Assembly: GCF_029016285.1 (NCBI RefSeq)
Contig: NZ_CP091975.1
Location: 2,666,001 to 2,730,000, forward strand
DNA from: Vibrio sp. DW001
GTDB lineage: Bacteria; Pseudomonadota; Gammaproteobacteria; Enterobacterales; Vibrionaceae
Reading direction: 5' to 3'
Length of the DNA stretch: 64,000 nucleotides
Shown here: piece after piece, positions 949-7,786 of the stretch
Position numbering within the stretch: the first letter of the stretch is position 1
Layout: each line of letters opens with the position of its first letter
The notes under the pieces: model-generated
Seen by the model: only the letters and a program-made list of their open reading frames with translations
What the model was told of the DNA's origin: nothing
Databases searched by the model: none
Made by a program: the position numbers and the translations under genes

Positions 949-2856
949 GTCGGGTGGACGACACTTGTTACCAAGTGCCGTCTCCCTAAGAACCCAGCGT
1001 GCAACTTTCACTGCACTAGGCTCAAGCCTCCACAAAGGCATCAAATGATACCCAGCAACTTATAACGCAGTCGGGACAGGCTCTTTCCAAGAGTTACGCG
1101 CTAGCCTTTTAGACTTTCTCTTTGCCAAGTACTCTTGGTATTGAGGGGCAAATGGTGTCGCTGCACTTCGGATTTTCACATGCCTTTCTATCGGCACTTT
1201 GGCTATTTGGAAGAGATCGAACTGGCAATCCATATCCATGATCTTCTGCCAACCGTGAAACTGCCATTGGCCTTTACGGTTGATGAAGTAATTTTAGGGC
1301 GATCCAACTTTTAGACTTTGTTGGATGACGCCTTTTAGCCCAGTGCCATAACGTATGGAATAGCTTGTGACCGACATATCCGAATACCTGTTTAGCCACG
1401 CAATGTCGATAATAGTTCGACCCCCCCTGAGTTTCGGATTTATCAGTTTGATAAGATCATTCACTGGAAGGGTTACGTGCTTTTTGATGAGTTCACGCAG
1501 ATTACTTAAGAACATCAACGTATTGGATTTACTCGGCTTAATGAGCAGTTTCCCTTTGTATTTTCTGTGGTTGAACCCAAGAAAGTTAAAGCCATCGTTG
1601 ATGTGGGTGATATGCGTTTTCTCTTCGGATAGTGTCAAGCCTCTTTCTGCTAAGAAGTCAGCAATCAACGGTTTGATATCGTTCTCTAGCACTTCCTTTG
1701 AAGCGCAAGTGACGACGAAATCGTCGGCATATCCAATAAAGTTAGCTCTTGCTCCTTTTTTGAGAGCGGTAGACTTAATTTGCTGTTCGAGACCAGAGAG
1801 CGTCATTAACATCAAGGTTGGGGATATAATCCCACCTTGAGGCGTGCCTTCATCAGTGTCGTAAAACAGCCCTTTGTCTACAAAACCAGACTTCAACCAT
1901 TGTTCCAACATACGTTTATCGATAGCAACATTGTCCATGAGCCATTGATGTCCGATTTTGTCGAAACAGGCTTTTATATCCCCTTCAAGAACCCATTGCG
2001 CTGAACGCTTTTGACTCAAGCAAATAAAACACTGCCCGATAGCATCAGCGGTACTGCGTTTTGGTCGAAAGCCGTAACTGTTAGGGTCTGCAAGGCATTC
2101 CGACACGGGCTCTAACGCTAATAGGTGAAGCGCTTGTTGCGCTCTGTCTATCATACATGGGATACCCAGTGGTCGAAGTTTGCCATTCTTTTTGGGGATG
2201 TAGATACGCTTGAGTGGTCTAGCTTGATAAGCCTTTCGACTCAATTGATTCACTGCTTTCATACGGCGTCCATCTGTATTCCAGATGACACCGTCTATTC
2301 CAGACGTTTTACTGCCTTTATTTTGTGATACTCGCTTAACAGCAAGAAGCTTTGCTGAACGAGAATGAGTCAATATCCACTGCAACGCTTTCACTTTGCC
2401 GTGTTTACCTTCTCGTGTTGCCTTTGCGATACGCATCTGAAGCTTTAACACATGCAACTCAATGGGTTTCCAGTCGATTGACTACCATTGGGCGCTGTCA
2501 GGAGAGGCACTAATCTCGGTTGAAATCATCATTTGCATTTCTCCTTGAATAAAGTTCTTCAAATTCTCTCGCAACGGGAGACCAGTCAGAAGTGGGCTCA
2601 CTTTCGTGATCAGACACAAGTCTGTATCTGCATCGTTACAATGCAGCCTTCGCTTTTTCCAACCTCCTCTACCTGCACCACTATCGGCCACAGAGGCTTT
2701 CCCATAGGGAGTGATACAGGCTTACCCTGTTCCGTATGTTAGGTAAATGTCAGCTTAGATGCCCACTCTAGTGCGGAGAGTACTCTGATCACGAAAGGGC
2801 AATGCCCAACTCCTTTCCGACTCTCATTGCCATTTTGGCCACAGCGTATAACGCAC
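949..2856 (-). mobile_element. Group II intron, left copy (maturase decayed)
   Basis: The intron starts with GTGCG (minus strand, first base 2856) and ends at about 949 in ...CCACCCGAC. Its boundaries are set by where it stops matching the neighbouring copy at 2859-4765. A domain V-like hairpin (GAGCC...GGTTC with GAAA-type bulge sequence) lies at about 987-1026, and the maturase reading frame occupies the middle. Only two bases (2857-2858) separate it from the right copy. The encoded protein carries three lesions, so mobility or splicing would need a maturase supplied in trans, possibly from the intact right copy. Confidence 0.85.
1060..2532 (-). pseudogene. ltrA: Degenerate group II intron reverse transcriptase/maturase
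   Basis: This is a homologue of the intact maturase at 2970-4442. By alignment it has a stop codon (TAG at 2482-2484) where the intact copy has Gln, just after SAQW. It also has a one-base loss in the C7 run at 1421-1427 (RGWANYY becomes RGG then out of frame) and a compensating one-base gain near 1290. Reverse transcriptase motifs remain readable: NSYGFRP, GTPQGGIISP and YADDFVVT. The expected start is ATG 2532 behind AAGGAGA, and the expected stop is at 1060-1062. Retention of most of the frame suggests recent decay. Confidence 0.85.
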
Positions 2857-2858
2857 CT

Positions 2859-4765
2859 GTCGGGTGGACGACACTTGTTACCAAGTGCCGTCTCCCTAAG
2901 AACCGTACGTGCAACTTTCACTGCATACGGCTCAAGCCTCCACAAAGGCATCGTTTGATACCCAGCAACTTATAAAGCAGTTAAAACAGGATCGTTCCAA
3001 GAGTTGCGAGCTTTCCTTTTGAATTTTCTCTTCGCCAAGTATTCTTGGTGCTGAGGGTCAAATGGCGTTGCGGCACTTCGGATTTTCACATGTCTTTCTA
3101 TTGGTACTTTGGCTATTTGAAATAGATTGAACTGACAATCCATATCCATGATCTTCTGCCAACCGTGAAACTGCCACTGGCCTTTTCGGTTGATGAAGTA
3201 CTTATGGGTGACCCAATTTTTTGATTTAGTTGGGTGACGCCTAACAGCCCAGAGCCATAATGCTTGGAATAGTTGGTGCCCGACATATCCGAAAACTCGT
3301 TTGGCAACACAGTGGCGATAGTAATTCGCCCATCCCCGTATTTTGGGATTTATCATTTTGATAAGGTTATTTACTGGGATCGTTGCGTGAGCTTTGATGA
3401 GTTTACGTAAGTTACTTAAGAATGACAGTACGTTGGTTTTACTCGGTTTTATGAGTAGCTTCCCTTTGTATTTTCTGTGGTTGAACCCTAGAAAATCAAA
3501 TCCATCATTAATATGAACTATGCGTGTTTTTTCATCGGAGAGTGTTAGACCTCTTTCTATTAAGAATTCAGCAATCAATGGTTTTATATCGTTCTCTAAT
3601 ACATCCTTTGATGTACAAGTGACAACGAAGTCATCAGCGTATCCAATAAAGTTAGCTCTTGCTTTCTTTTTAAGAGCCAAGGACTTTATTTGTTGTTCAA
3701 GCCCTACGAGAGTCATTAGCATCAAGGTTGGAGAAATTATTCCACCTTGTGGCGTACCTTCGTCAGTACGATAAAACAACCCCTTGTCAATAAAACCAGA
3801 CTTCAGCCATTGTTCCAACATACGCTTATCTACAGCGATGTTATCAAGAAGCCACTGATGCTCGATTTTATCAAAACAAGATTTAATATCTCCTTCAAGA
3901 ATCCATTTAGCCGCCTTCTTTTGAGCCAAACATAAGAAACACTGCGCTATTGCATCAGTGGTGCTGCGATTTGGTCTAAATCCGTAACTATTTGGGTCTG
4001 AGATTGTTTCTGAGATAGGCTCCAATGCAAGGAGGTAGAGCGCTTGTTGCGCTCTATCAGTCATGCAAGGAATACCAAGTGGTCGAAGCTTACCGTTCTT
4101 TTTAGGGATGTAGATTCGCTTGAGTGGTTTAGCTTGATAAGCTTTCCGACTCAATTGATTCACTGCTTTCATGCGACGCGCATCTGTATTCCAGATGACG
4201 CCATCTATTCCAGGCGTTTTACTACCTTTGTTTTGAGATACTCGCTTAACAGCAAGAAGTTTTGCTGAACGCGAGTGAGTCAGTATCCATTGCAACGTTT
4301 TCACTTTACCGTGTTTACCTTCTCTAGTTGCCTTTGCGATACGCATTTGAAGCTTTAAGACACGCGCCTCCACAGCCTTCCAGTTAATGGATTGCCATTG
4401 TGCACTGTCAGAAGATGCACTAATCTCGTTCGAAATCATCATTTGCTTTTCTTCCTTAATAAAGTTCTTCAAACTTTCTCGCAACGGGAGACCAGTTGGA
4501 AGTAGGCTCACTTTCGTGATCAGGTATATTCCTGTATCTGCGTCATTACAATGCAGCTTTCGCTTTCTCCAACCTCCTTTACCTGCATCACTATCGGCCA
4601 CAGAGGCTTTCCCAGAGGGAGCGATACAGGCTTACCATGTTCCGTATGTCTCGTAATGTCAGGGGAGATGCCCACTATAATGCGAAGAGTATTTCGATCA
4701 CGAAAGAATACATTCAAATTTCTTTCCTACTCTCGTTGCTTATTTAGCTACAGCGTCTAAACCAC
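2859..4765 (-). mobile_element. Group II intron, right copy (intact maturase)
   Basis: The 5' end GTGGT is placed at 4765 by aligning the first ~45 bases with the left copy (shared ACGCTGT, GAGAG, GGAAAG blocks). The 3' end at about 2859 is ...CCACCCGAC, the point where the two copies stop matching. Domain V is the hairpin at about 2897-2933, GAGCCG paired with CGGTTC. The first bases differ from the usual GTGYG consensus (GTGGT), so the 5' boundary should be confirmed. It encodes the intact maturase inside the loop-out domain, as is normal for bacterial ORF-containing introns. Confidence 0.88.
2970..4442 (-). CDS. ltrA: Group II intron reverse transcriptase/maturase
   Basis: This 490-residue multifunctional protein helps the intron fold and splice and copies it into new sites. 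The frame is open up to 4601, but ATG 4442 with AAGGAAG seven bases upstream fits the family start, and the extra upstream codons overlap intron RNA structure. In order it has an N-terminal RT0-like segment (QSINWKAVEARVLKLQMRI), palm motifs NSYGFRP, GTPQGGIISP and the catalytic YADD, then a maturase (X) domain with RGWANYYRHC. The protein ends soon after a basic tail (KRKFKRKARNSW) and shows no Cys/His HNH endonuclease domain. It is therefore an endonuclease-less type that would depend on other priming for mobility. It is the only intact maturase of the tandem pair. Confidence 0.93.
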   Translation of the reverse strand: MMISNEISASSDSAQWQSINWKAVEARVLKLQMRIAKATREGKHGKVKTLQWILTHSRSAKLLAVKRVSQNKGSKTPGIDGVIWNTDARRMKAVNQLSRKAYQAKPLKRIYIPKKNGKLRPLGIPCMTDRAQQALYLLALEPISETISDPNSYGFRPNRSTTDAIAQCFLCLAQKKAAKWILEGDIKSCFDKIEHQWLLDNIAVDKRMLEQWLKSGFIDKGLFYRTDEGTPQGGIISPTLMLMTLVGLEQQIKSLALKKKARANFIGYADDFVVTCTSKDVLENDIKPLIAEFLIERGLTLSDEKTRIVHINDGFDFLGFNHRKYKGKLLIKPSKTNVLSFLSNLRKLIKAHATIPVNNLIKMINPKIRGWANYYRHCVAKRVFGYVGHQLFQALWLWAVRRHPTKSKNWVTHKYFINRKGQWQFHGWQKIMDMDCQFNLFQIAKVPIERHVKIRSAATPFDPQHQEYLAKRKFKRKARNSWNDPVLTAL

Positions 4766-4782
4766 TTCCGCTGCTTGTGAAA

Positions 4783-4793
4783 TTACGCATCTG
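4783..4793. repeat. Right arm of the inverted repeat that brackets the tandem introns
   Basis: TTACGCATCTG is the exact reverse complement of 929-939. It lies 18 bases outside the 5' end of the right intron and five bases before the first structured repeat unit. Confidence 0.6.
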
Positions 4794-4797
4794 ACGT

Positions 4798-5019
4798 GGA
4801 TTCACTTCTGTTCATCATACTGACTCCCTAGCACTTACCCGATTTATGTGGTTATCAGGAGGAGCGTCCTCTCACGATTCAGTTCCCGCCTATTAGATAG
4901 ACTTTGTTACATTGTCAGGCTCGCTTCTTTATTCAGAGCCATAGGGTCATTTGGTGATACAAATGGTTCGCTCTTTTCGTGGCGAACAACGATTCATACG
5001 ACTTCATGTCGCACTAAAT
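4798..5019. repeat. Structured direct repeat, unit 1 (putative structured RNA or ssDNA element)
   Basis: First of two tandem copies, period about 222 bases. Hairpins visible in order: GAGGA/TCCTC inside an outer GTG/CAC pair; GGCTC/GAGCC around a ~12-base loop; CATTTG/CAAATG around GTGATA; GTTCGC/GCGAAC; and CGAC/GTCG. Where unit 2 differs inside the third, second and fourth stems, both sides change together so that pairing is kept. No open frame covers the unit on either strand. I do not recognise the family, and the strand of transcription is unknown. Confidence 0.7.
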
Positions 5020-5239
5020 GGATTCACATTCGTTCATCATACTGACACCCTAGCACTTACCCGAATTGTGGTTTTCAGGAGGAACGTCCTCTCACGATTT
5101 CGTTCCCACTCAGCCTAACGACCAAGTTTCGTTACATTGTCGGATTCGCTGCTTTATTCAGAATCCTAGGGTCATCTGGTGATACAGATGGTTCACTCTT
5201 TTCGTGGTGAACAACGCTTCATACGACTTCAGGTCGCAC
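5020..5239. repeat. Structured direct repeat, unit 2
   Basis: Second copy of the unit beginning GGATTCAC. Stems here read GGATTC/GAATCC, CATCTG/CAGATG and GTTCAC/GTGAAC. Compared with unit 1 this gives four base pairs exchanged on both strands and one mismatch converted to a pair. The stretch from its end to the IS21 boundary at 5311 shows nothing recognisable. Confidence 0.7.
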
Positions 5240-5533
5240 GGGCAGAAATGAGTTTGGCAACATCGCCTCTGTTAGATTCCAATCAGCAAAGAAAGCACTA
5301 CCTCTATAAGTGCGTATTTCGGAGCATTGCGATCACCTATTTCGGCATTATTCGATCACCTGTTTCGGTTTAAACCGATCGCTCATTCCGCAATAATCCG
5401 ATCACTTTAGCCCAAACTCCGAAATGGGCGATCGGAATAGCGAAATCACTGATCGGATACTCCGAAACCCTCCCTTTTTCTCTTTTAAATCAACCAGTCG
5501 CTATCCTTGTTAGTAGTCGTATACAACTAGGAA

Positions 5534-7072
5534 GTGATGATGCCAAAAAAGAGAACACCAATGACAAAAATTAAAGAGGTTTTACGCCTTAAATTCGAGT
5601 GCGGATTGTCATACAGAAATATCGCTTCCTGCCTGAAAATTGGTTGTGCGACCGTATCTGAAATCATCAGCCGTTTTAATCAAAGCCAAATAGGTTGGCC
5701 GCTCCCTGATAGCTGTTCAGATACAGAGTTAACCAATGCGCTTTATCACCCTAAAGGAGCGAATAAAACCAAAGCGATGCCAAACTTCGCTAACTGTTGT
5801 ACGGAACTAAAAAGAAAAGGCATGACGAAACTGCTGTTGTGGGAAGAATATTACGAGCAATATCAGGAGCGAGCCTACGCTTATACTCAGTTCTGTGAAC
5901 ATTACATGCGTTGGTTAAAAAAGCAGAAGCGTAGCATGCGACAGACCCACATCGCAGGTGACAAACTGTTCATTGATTACTGTGGCCCAACGATCCCAGT
6001 CGTTAACCCTGACACAGGAGAGAGCCGTCATGCCCAGGTTTTTGTTGCCACTCTTGGTGCATCCAATTATACCTACGTGGAAGCAAGTGAGAGTCAAAAA
6101 CTAGAGCACTGGCTGGAAGCCCATGCCAATGCCTTCGAGCACTTCGGCGGGGTTCCAAGGTTGTTAGTCCCTGATAACCTGCGTTCGGCTGTCACTAAGC
6201 ATGACCGCTATGAACCTCAGCTCAACGATAGTTACCAGAAGCTATCTAACCATTACCAGACGGCTGTCATGCCTGCTCGACCATACAAACCTAAAGACAA
6301 AGCAAAAGCTGAAAATGCAGTGCTCATTGTTGAGCGTTGGATAATGATGCGGCTACGACACAATACCTTCCACACGTTCAAAGAGTTAAACCTAGCCATC
6401 CGTGAACTAATGAATGACTTGAACCAAAGGGAAATGAAACAGTTAGGAGCCAGTCGTCAGGCACTGTTCGAGCAGTTAGATAAACCAGCACTGAGGCCAC
6501 TTCCAATCCAACGTTACATCTATACCGAAACTAAGCGGGCAAAAGTTGGGCCTGACTACCACATAGAGTACAGAAAACATTACTACTCTGTGCCTCACCA
6601 GTTAGTGGGACAACATGTTGAACTGGAAGCCACTTCTCGCTTGATACGCATTTATTATCAAGGAAACCTAGTCTCACAACATCCATGTAGCCTAAAAGAA
6701 CGAGGGATAAGCACTTACCCCGAACACATGCCCAGCAACCATCGGTATCAGAAATGGTCTCCTGATCGGTTATTGCGCTGGGGAGAACATATTGGTGCTG
6801 CTATTCGTGAAATGGTGAATGTTCAACTGATGAAAAAGGCACACCCTGAACAAGCTTATCGCAGCTGCCTTGGCTTATTGAACCTGAGTAAAAAGTATGG
6901 TGATGTTCGTCTAGAGCAAGCCTGTAAGGATGCGCTTTTAATCAATAAACCCTATCTTAAGTTCGTCAAAAACTTGTTAGTAAATCATCGGGAAGGCCAA
7001 CTCTCATCAGAAACTCAAACTACACCCAACATAAAGCACAGTAATGTTCGTGGCCCTGACTTTTACCACTAG
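5534..7072 (+). CDS. istA: IS21-family transposase IstA
   Basis: A 512-residue DDE transposase. A helix-turn-helix lies at about residues 13-48 (LRLKFECGLSYRNIASCLKI), followed by the RNase H-like catalytic core with Asp148 in FIDYCGP, Asp214 in LVPDNLR and Glu260 in KAKAEN, all present. The length matches full-size IstA proteins, so this gene looks intact. It ends nine bases before istB, the standard IS21 arrangement in which IstB is the AAA+ helper. ATG 5534 is one of two nearby starts (5534 and 5537). Confidence 0.93.
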   Translation: MMMPKKRTPMTKIKEVLRLKFECGLSYRNIASCLKIGCATVSEIISRFNQSQIGWPLPDSCSDTELTNALYHPKGANKTKAMPNFANCCTELKRKGMTKLLLWEEYYEQYQERAYAYTQFCEHYMRWLKKQKRSMRQTHIAGDKLFIDYCGPTIPVVNPDTGESRHAQVFVATLGASNYTYVEASESQKLEHWLEAHANAFEHFGGVPRLLVPDNLRSAVTKHDRYEPQLNDSYQKLSNHYQTAVMPARPYKPKDKAKAENAVLIVERWIMMRLRHNTFHTFKELNLAIRELMNDLNQREMKQLGASRQALFEQLDKPALRPLPIQRYIYTETKRAKVGPDYHIEYRKHYYSVPHQLVGQHVELEATSRLIRIYYQGNLVSQHPCSLKERGISTYPEHMPSNHRYQKWSPDRLLRWGEHIGAAIREMVNVQLMKKAHPEQAYRSCLGLLNLSKKYGDVRLEQACKDALLINKPYLKFVKNLLVNHREGQLSSETQTTPNIKHSNVRGPDFYH

Positions 7073-7081
7073 GAGTACATA

Positions 7082-7737
7082 ATGAACCAGATAAATGAAC
7101 AACTAAAAGCACTTCGCCTTGGTCATGCAGCACAAGCTTTAGAGCAGCAACGTGAGCAGCTATCCACTTACGCAGAGCTAGCGTTCGAAGAAAGGCTAAG
7201 CTTACTTCTAGAGAGTGAATTACTTAACCGTAACCAAACTAAAATCCAAAGGCTCAAGCGACAAGTAAAGCTAAGAGTAGATGCGCAGGCAAAACCTATA
7301 TCGCTTGCGCTTTATCGGGTCAGGCTTGCGAGCAGCAACATAGCGTTCGATATTACCGTTTGAGTCGCTTACTGGATGATCTAAGTTCAGGCCGTCTTGA
7401 CGGCACATATCAAAAACAACTACTGGCACTGTCGAAAAAAGGCTTACTCATCCTCGATGACTGGGGAATGGAAAAGCTCACACAGGATCATGCAGGTCAT
7501 TTACTGGAGTTACTTGAAGACAGGTATCAGGTCCGCAGCACGATTATGATAAGCCAACTTCCTGTAAAAGAATGGTACAACATGATAGGAAACGCCACGG
7601 TTGCTGATGCTGTTTTAGACCGATTAATCCATAACAGCCACCGACTGGAACTAGGGGGGAGAATCAATGAGAAAACTGGCGCAATCCGATCAGTTAGAGT
7701 AAAACTAGAGGTAGAGAAAAGCGGTAGGGTCAGATGA
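7082..7737 (+). pseudogene. istB: IstB helper ATPase with internal deletion and frameshift
   Basis: The N-terminal 70 residues match IstB (MNQINEQLKALRLGHAAQAL...). Around 7290 the sequence jumps straight from the N-terminal domain to GKTYIACALSG in another frame. The segment containing most of the Walker A loop is therefore missing and translation stops at 7361-7363. The remainder is readable in the second frame: RYYRLSRLLDDL, the Walker B region LLILDDWG, then the sensor regions to the stop at 7735-7737. Combined length is about 218 codons against about 250 for the family. Without the P-loop the protein could not work as an ATPase. Confidence 0.88.
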
Positions 7738-7786
7738 TCGGATTAAACCGAAACGCCCGATCGGAATCGCCGAAATACGCAATAAG

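Follow-up and report, generated by a model that had tools for sequence, protein, structure and literature searches.

The 64,000-nucleotide stretch of Vibrio sp. DW001 analysed here (the window; NCBI RefSeq assembly GCF_029016285.1, contig NZ_CP091975.1) contains intron sequences in the order a-a'-b'-b, which, judged by this anatomy, is a twintron, i.e. a complete inner group II intron lies precisely inside an outer one. We put the probability that it was formed by retrohoming of the inner intron into domain I of another group II intron at about 93%. The nesting, the exact junctions, the complementarity of IBS and EBS elements and the differing outer introns can all be read directly from the sequence.

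Both introns are encoded on the minus strand. The outer intron starts with GTGCGAC at 5239, and its 5' part of 225 nt (5015..5239) covers domain I up to the insertion site. A second GTGCGAC at 5014 marks the beginning of the inner intron, which is complete with 2156 nt (2859..5014) and ends at 2859 (CACCCGAC); thereafter follows the outer 3' part (949..2858, 1910 nt, delimited by alignment to the inner intron), which consists of the remaining domain I, an interrupted frame for an intron-encoded protein (IEP), and domains V-VI (D5-D6). Domains V-VI are recognized by RF00029 in both introns (inner, 2859..2935, 64.6 bits; outer, 949..1025, 55.6 bits). Group II introns have the consensus ends 5' GUGYG and 3' AY, and both introns possess GTGCG at the 5' end and CGAC at the 3' end. 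When the two outer parts are rejoined, the outer intron aligns with the inner one over the full length, with 1749 of 2128 positions being identical; just past the junction, the outer intron lacks about 26 nt that are present in the inner intron and also in the nested copy of Vibrio sp. J383 (see below). The inner intron is inserted into that stem of domain I which leads to EBS1. In solitary relatives, this site is uninterrupted (e.g. GAATCCATTTAAGG), and the closest of the 49 solitary introns compared is 95% identical to the outer 5' part. What is found is therefore a complete intron with exact junctions inside another intron, as it characterizes twintrons. As a side aspect, the rejoined outer intron of the window (949-2858 plus 5015-5239) looks mosaic, as its 5' approximately 375 nt have their closest counterpart in an L052-type intron (92-95%) and the remainder is closest to the L088 type (86-100% by 150-nt window), with the switch being about 150 nt past the insertion site.

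The first-pass annotation had described the region 4798-5239 as a tandem repeat of two units with compensatory hairpin changes. Two direct copies are indeed present, and only the cut points (4798-5019/5020-5239) had to be shifted by about 5 nt, as the intron 5' ends at 5239 and 5014 set the exact limits to 5239-5015 (225 nt) and 5014-4790; the former is the outer 5' part (unit 2) and the latter corresponds to the first 225 nt of the inner intron (unit 1). The units had been placed directly outside two group II introns, which is incorrect, since they are the 5' domains of these very introns on the minus strand. All four double-sided changes and the one change from a mismatch to a pair that had been reported are visible in the alignment: between the units, the GGATTC versus (T)GGCTC hairpin shows A-T/G-C and T-A/C-G double changes, the CATCTG versus CATTTG hairpin a C-G/T-A double change, and the GTTCAC versus GTTCGC hairpin an A-T/G-C double change, and one T-T mismatch in one unit is a G-C pair in the other. 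That the folded form matters is borne out by 34 related copies, the consensus fold of which contains 57 pairs, 21 of them with at least one double-sided change, and by the Rfam family RF02012 (group-II-D1D4-7, gathering threshold 34), which matches both units on the minus strand (inner, 4966-4831, 77.5 bits, E-value 3.4e-14; outer, 5191-5053, 74.7 bits, E-value 1.7e-13). Folding energy gave no signal for the first 415 nt of the inner intron (z -0.16; 37 of 100 shuffles fold equally well). By sequence homology, each unit of about 222 nt represents a group II intron domain I and not a new RNA family, and the compensatory changes fit the ordinary upkeep of ribozyme helices. The suggestion of a ribozyme-like element was thus a good candidate, while the attribute undescribed has to be dropped in view of RF02012. 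The inverted repeat noted nearby (5353-5404 with 7735-7764) lies on either side of IS21 open reading frames (ORFs) and is unrelated to the units; in the IS21 element itself (5534-7737), a transposase ORF is accompanied by a helper ATPase region that is broken up into two short ORFs, of which the first was scanned.

The inner intron encodes its own reverse transcriptase/maturase at 2970..4442 on the minus strand, within the listed ORF 4601-2970; the start, an ATG near 4442, was deduced from the 1473-nt ltrA annotated in J383. This frame is open over 553 stop-free codons, scores 362.2 bits against TIGR04416 (cut-off 300), and contains the Pfam domains RVT_N, RVT_1 and GIIM. As there was no further Pfam match at E-values up to 1, the inner IEP lacks an endonuclease domain. 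Among its solved relatives, the maturase 6me0 scores best (E 1.2e-153), and we take this to be the TeI4h maturase of T. elongatus. The outer IEP (1294..2457, minus strand; TIGR04416 324.8 bits) has an interrupted frame with a 387 aa ORF left, the longest stop-free stretch covering 395 codons and other stretches being in separate pieces. Elsewhere, the frame is broken in the V. mytili inner and in the J383 outer intron, and it is open in the V. mytili outer intron.

The inner lineage occurs at no fewer than six loci, namely twice in the own genome, on a plasmid of Vibrio sp. J383, in V. hibernica, in V. mytili, and as one decayed remnant (G109). All six adjoin outer-type sequence, and five of them share the same 5' junction. 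Relatives were sought in 329 family genomes with a 480-nt probe spanning the a-a' junction; the counts from the genome searches are lower bounds because two candidates were scored per genome in nearly all genomes. The probe matched at E <= 0.001 in at least 108 of the 329 genomes, and 475-480 of its 480 nt were covered in one stretch at at least six places (two in the own genome, one each in G172, G197, G134 and G280). Altogether, 64 loci were mapped, i.e. 60 fetched regions plus L012, L014, L015 and L016. The nested order with both outer parts is found on the J383 plasmid (L016), where an annotated IS110 interrupts the outer intron close to its 3' end, and in V. mytili (L048). In the second copy of the own genome (L012), which has a 5' exon different from that of the window, the outer 3' part breaks off after some 120 nt, and in V. 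hibernica (L047) the contig ends inside the inner intron, so that the 5' junction alone is visible. The remnant (L109:4334-4595) is 95.7% identical to inner nt 87-225 and then continues with D5-D6 that are nearer to the outer type (98.6% versus 94.1%); on its 5' side, a few nucleotides of the intron start are left after a GGGGC exon.

Further searches addressed how restricted the lineage is. A 163-nt inner-specific stretch matched at E <= 1e-20 in at least 77 of the 329 family genomes, and among the matches listed, identities above 82% were limited to the own genome (100%, twice), G197 (93%) and G109 (93% over 70 nt). An exact inner 36-mer, which is blind to diverged copies, was present in V. 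hibernica and V. mytili records only, among 84,980 species genomes of a collection in which own-genome or near records may be absent. Plasmid records yielded J383 with 96.5% and two others with less than 80%, an exact 24-mer inner signature had no match in viral contigs, and no further nested case was detected in an order-wide search of 394 genomes at E <= 1e-75. In G134 (L049/L110), a different family member is joined to outer nt 181, and its IBS1 TTGGGT pairs with its EBS1 GCCCGA in 6/6 positions, which may possibly indicate a second homing site inside domain I; as the outer 3' remainder could not be located within 15 kb of sequence, this locus is not counted as a twintron. The locus L050 (G280) is ambiguous, because a 5' fragment of 250 nt precedes the second 5' end and the contig does not extend beyond the intron; it may be a truncation-type arrangement with a 5' fragment beside an intron.

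The two inner introns of the own genome are identical in 2156 of 2156 positions. Their outer introns, by contrast, share only 202/225 positions in the 5' part and 80/102 in the 3' part, with the differences between them setting in 16 nt upstream and 2 nt downstream of the inner intron. Pairwise over the five nested copies, inner identities are 91.6-100% (for V. hibernica, no more than about 251 nt could be compared) and outer 5' identities 78.8-90.7%. J383 and V. mytili have inner introns with 91.6% identity and outer introns with 89.6% and 87.3%. A 46-row tree places four inner introns in a single clade (support 100/100), and the outer introns of the window, J383 and V. mytili fall with the solitary introns L088, L102 and L087/L090, respectively. 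The second own-genome outer intron, the 5' side of which has 88.7% identity to its best solitary match, and that of V. hibernica, the 5' part of which is identical to solitary L077 in 225/225 positions, were too short for this tree. Identical inner introns in diverged outer introns, together with the tree, suggest repeated site-specific retrohoming.

How would such an intron find its site? The inner IBS1, CATTTA (5015..5020, minus strand), lies inside the outer domain I and pairs in 6/6 positions (one G-U) with the inner EBS1, TGAATG, in a hairpin loop at 4711..4716 (minus strand), and the second own-genome copy has the same pair. The outer IBS1, CTGCCC, constitutes the last bases of the true 5' exon (5240..5245, minus strand) and pairs in 5/6 positions with the outer EBS1, GGGCAT (2802..2807, minus strand). 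With the 6 nt upstream of each intron scored against a fixed hairpin-loop stretch, chosen as the best of 11 scorable offsets (runner-up 3.73), the mean pairing was 5.68/6 over 62 of 72 rows, the other 10 having been dropped because an EBS1 hairpin could not be read in the stretch analysed; 5000 shuffles had a mean of 3.95 and a maximum of 4.52. The other inner pairs are CGCTTA/TGTGCG in J383 and CGCTCA/TGCGCG in V. mytili (both 5/6); in V. hibernica, the contig stops before EBS1 is reached. In 39 copies, the host site is an internal loop between the helix of nt 215-219/339-343 (L103 numbering) and the next helix of the EBS1 stem. Of 49 solitary copies, 3 were dropped, and in the other 46 one particular pair of the host helix is either A-U (36 copies) or G-C (10 copies), which accounts for part of the IBS1 difference. 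The inner EBS1 seems to track this pair, with TGAATG in two A-U hosts and TGTGCG/TGCGCG in two G-C hosts, a correlation that comprises few independent events, the window and the second copy being identical. The window EBS1 would also pair in 5/6 positions with the J383 and V. mytili sites. It pairs in 6/6 positions with 13 of 60 truly unoccupied sites (66 rows minus 5 inner self-sites and the rejoined outer intron of the window), all of which are still empty. With the inner intron's own copy of the site, CACGTC, the window EBS1 pairs in 3/6 positions and the other two inner EBS1s in 4/6.

Mechanistically, the excised inner RNA together with its own reverse transcriptase/maturase would recognize the site in the outer domain I by EBS1-IBS1 pairing, and the RNA would reverse-splice between A and A of CATTTA^AGGTGCG and then be copied into DNA. 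As the inner IEP lacks an endonuclease domain, priming from the replication fork would be expected, as described for such IEPs (PMC4424553). The inner lineage appears to have repeated this insertion, since the same site is occupied in different outer introns. Because the insert splits the stem that leads to the outer EBS1, the outer intron probably folds and splices only once the inner one is removed, and inner-first splicing has been reviewed for twintrons (PMC4424553). Splicing order, maturase use and the fork-primed route are what we infer from these features. With a slight preference, we further consider the inner introns to be a dedicated autonomous lineage that lives only inside other group II introns. 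In such a lineage, the target would be one strand of a conserved host helix, so that EBS1 must follow compensatory changes therein, and the own site would have drifted out of range, which prevents self-insertion.

Which other routes could have led to this arrangement? Spreading of the inner intron between outer introns by homologous recombination or gene conversion instead of retrohoming is conceivable, as the outer introns are homologous and that of the window looks mosaic, but the differences begin within 16 nt of the identical inner introns and EBS1 is complementary to the site, and we therefore regard this route as very unlikely; gene conversion could nevertheless have contributed to the 100% inner identity. 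It is also highly improbable that the twintron moves as one composite element, with the outer intron carrying the unspliced inner one. This route has been named as a possibility (PMC2882425), nested copies do occur at different genomic sites, and as the J383 and V. mytili inner introns are hardly closer than their outer introns, this pair taken alone would also fit a shared descent of the nested pair. However, for the pair in the own genome composite movement is disfavoured by identical inner introns in diverged outer introns, and the three outer introns in the tree stand apart, each beside solitary introns, while the inner introns are one clade.

A mere local duplication of 222 bp at an intron 5' end would readily give two direct copies spaced by 220-225 nt, but it can practically be dismissed, as the 1.9-kb remainder is doubled as well, the a-a'-b'-b order has exact intron ends, and the site is uninterrupted in relatives. 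The chance that the units represent an undescribed structured RNA or a folded recombination site is similarly negligible: the covariation is genuine, but it is explained by a group II domain I that is contiguous with full introns, and the positive Rfam test refutes an undescribed RNA. The folded single-strand recombination site that had been considered is not needed either, since the anatomy with its exact junctions, the pairing of EBS1 with IBS1 and the uninterrupted sites of relatives all agree with an intron inside an intron.

Some observations on the solitary members of the family may be added. The 48 solitary introns L052-L105 have the target consensus CTAACTC(A/G)TTTTTGTCC^AAAAAYGTGTTAG, which is inverted-repeat-like in the consensus only. 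A structured target hairpin (CTAACTC...TGTCC^AAAA..GTGTTAG) was considered and rejected, as the exon complementarity was 4.46 when matched and 4.44 on average when shuffled (48 copies, 100 shuffles), and no covariation between the target halves was detected in these 48 copies. In L053, L055, L056, L058, L059, L061-L064, L069 and L072, the 5' domain I is 92-95% identical to the window outer intron and the remainder only 73-75% identical to the inner one, which suggests that the ribozyme and protein halves are exchanged or evolve at very different rates. The introns L057, L067, L068, L071, L074, L076, L078, L079, L080 and L086 are short (811-873 nt) and without most of the ORF, and they probably depend on protein supplied in trans.

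Like the IEP, which is related to the T. elongatus maturase 6me0, the behaviour of the inner lineage resembles that of Thermosynechococcus twintrons very much, and the Vibrio system is well supported as a case of this known kind. In Thermosynechococcus elongatus, TeI3 (F3) in TeI4 (F1) also combines identical inner introns with diverged outer introns, read as recent independent insertions, uses one conserved site inside another group II intron, and has EBS divergence as the explanation for new targets (PMC2882425). In contrast to Vibrio, where the inner intron carries its own reverse transcriptase frame and is inserted in domain I, the inner intron there is described as having no ORF and as being located in domain IV, between two outer-ORF start codons, and the IEPs have an endonuclease domain (PMC2882425). 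The Trichodesmium twintron Tr.e.I7-Tr.e.I8 is similar in that both of its introns bear an ORF and the inner one lies in domain I of the outer one, but the two are distantly related to each other, are situated within a protein-coding gene and occur in one genus, and sequential splicing, predicted for the Vibrio twintron, was shown experimentally there (PMC4649490). In the archaeon Methanosarcina acetivorans, site-specific homing into group II introns is likewise repeated, with up to five nested introns as compared to the two levels seen in Vibrio (PMC4424553, PMC2882425). A survey reported an increase of CL-type introns in V. campbellii_A and stated that outer introns of twintrons were not detectable with its program (PMC8919778). 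By title and abstract opening, no report on Vibrio twintrons was found in the open-access literature searched.

The RNA family as such is ordinary, the twintron is well supported, and the recurrent intron-in-intron homing lineage is moderately interesting. The covariation belongs to a known ribozyme, which closes that question. For annotation practice, the case is a warning that what looks like a tandem hairpin repeat close to a reverse transcriptase gene may be the split ends of introns, and that outer introns can be overlooked. For the intron family, the window adds a recent-looking bacterial case of introns homing into introns, with 100% identical inner introns in diverged hosts within one genome, kin of the inner intron in other Vibrio genomes, and a target variation that is tied to a helix of the host RNA.
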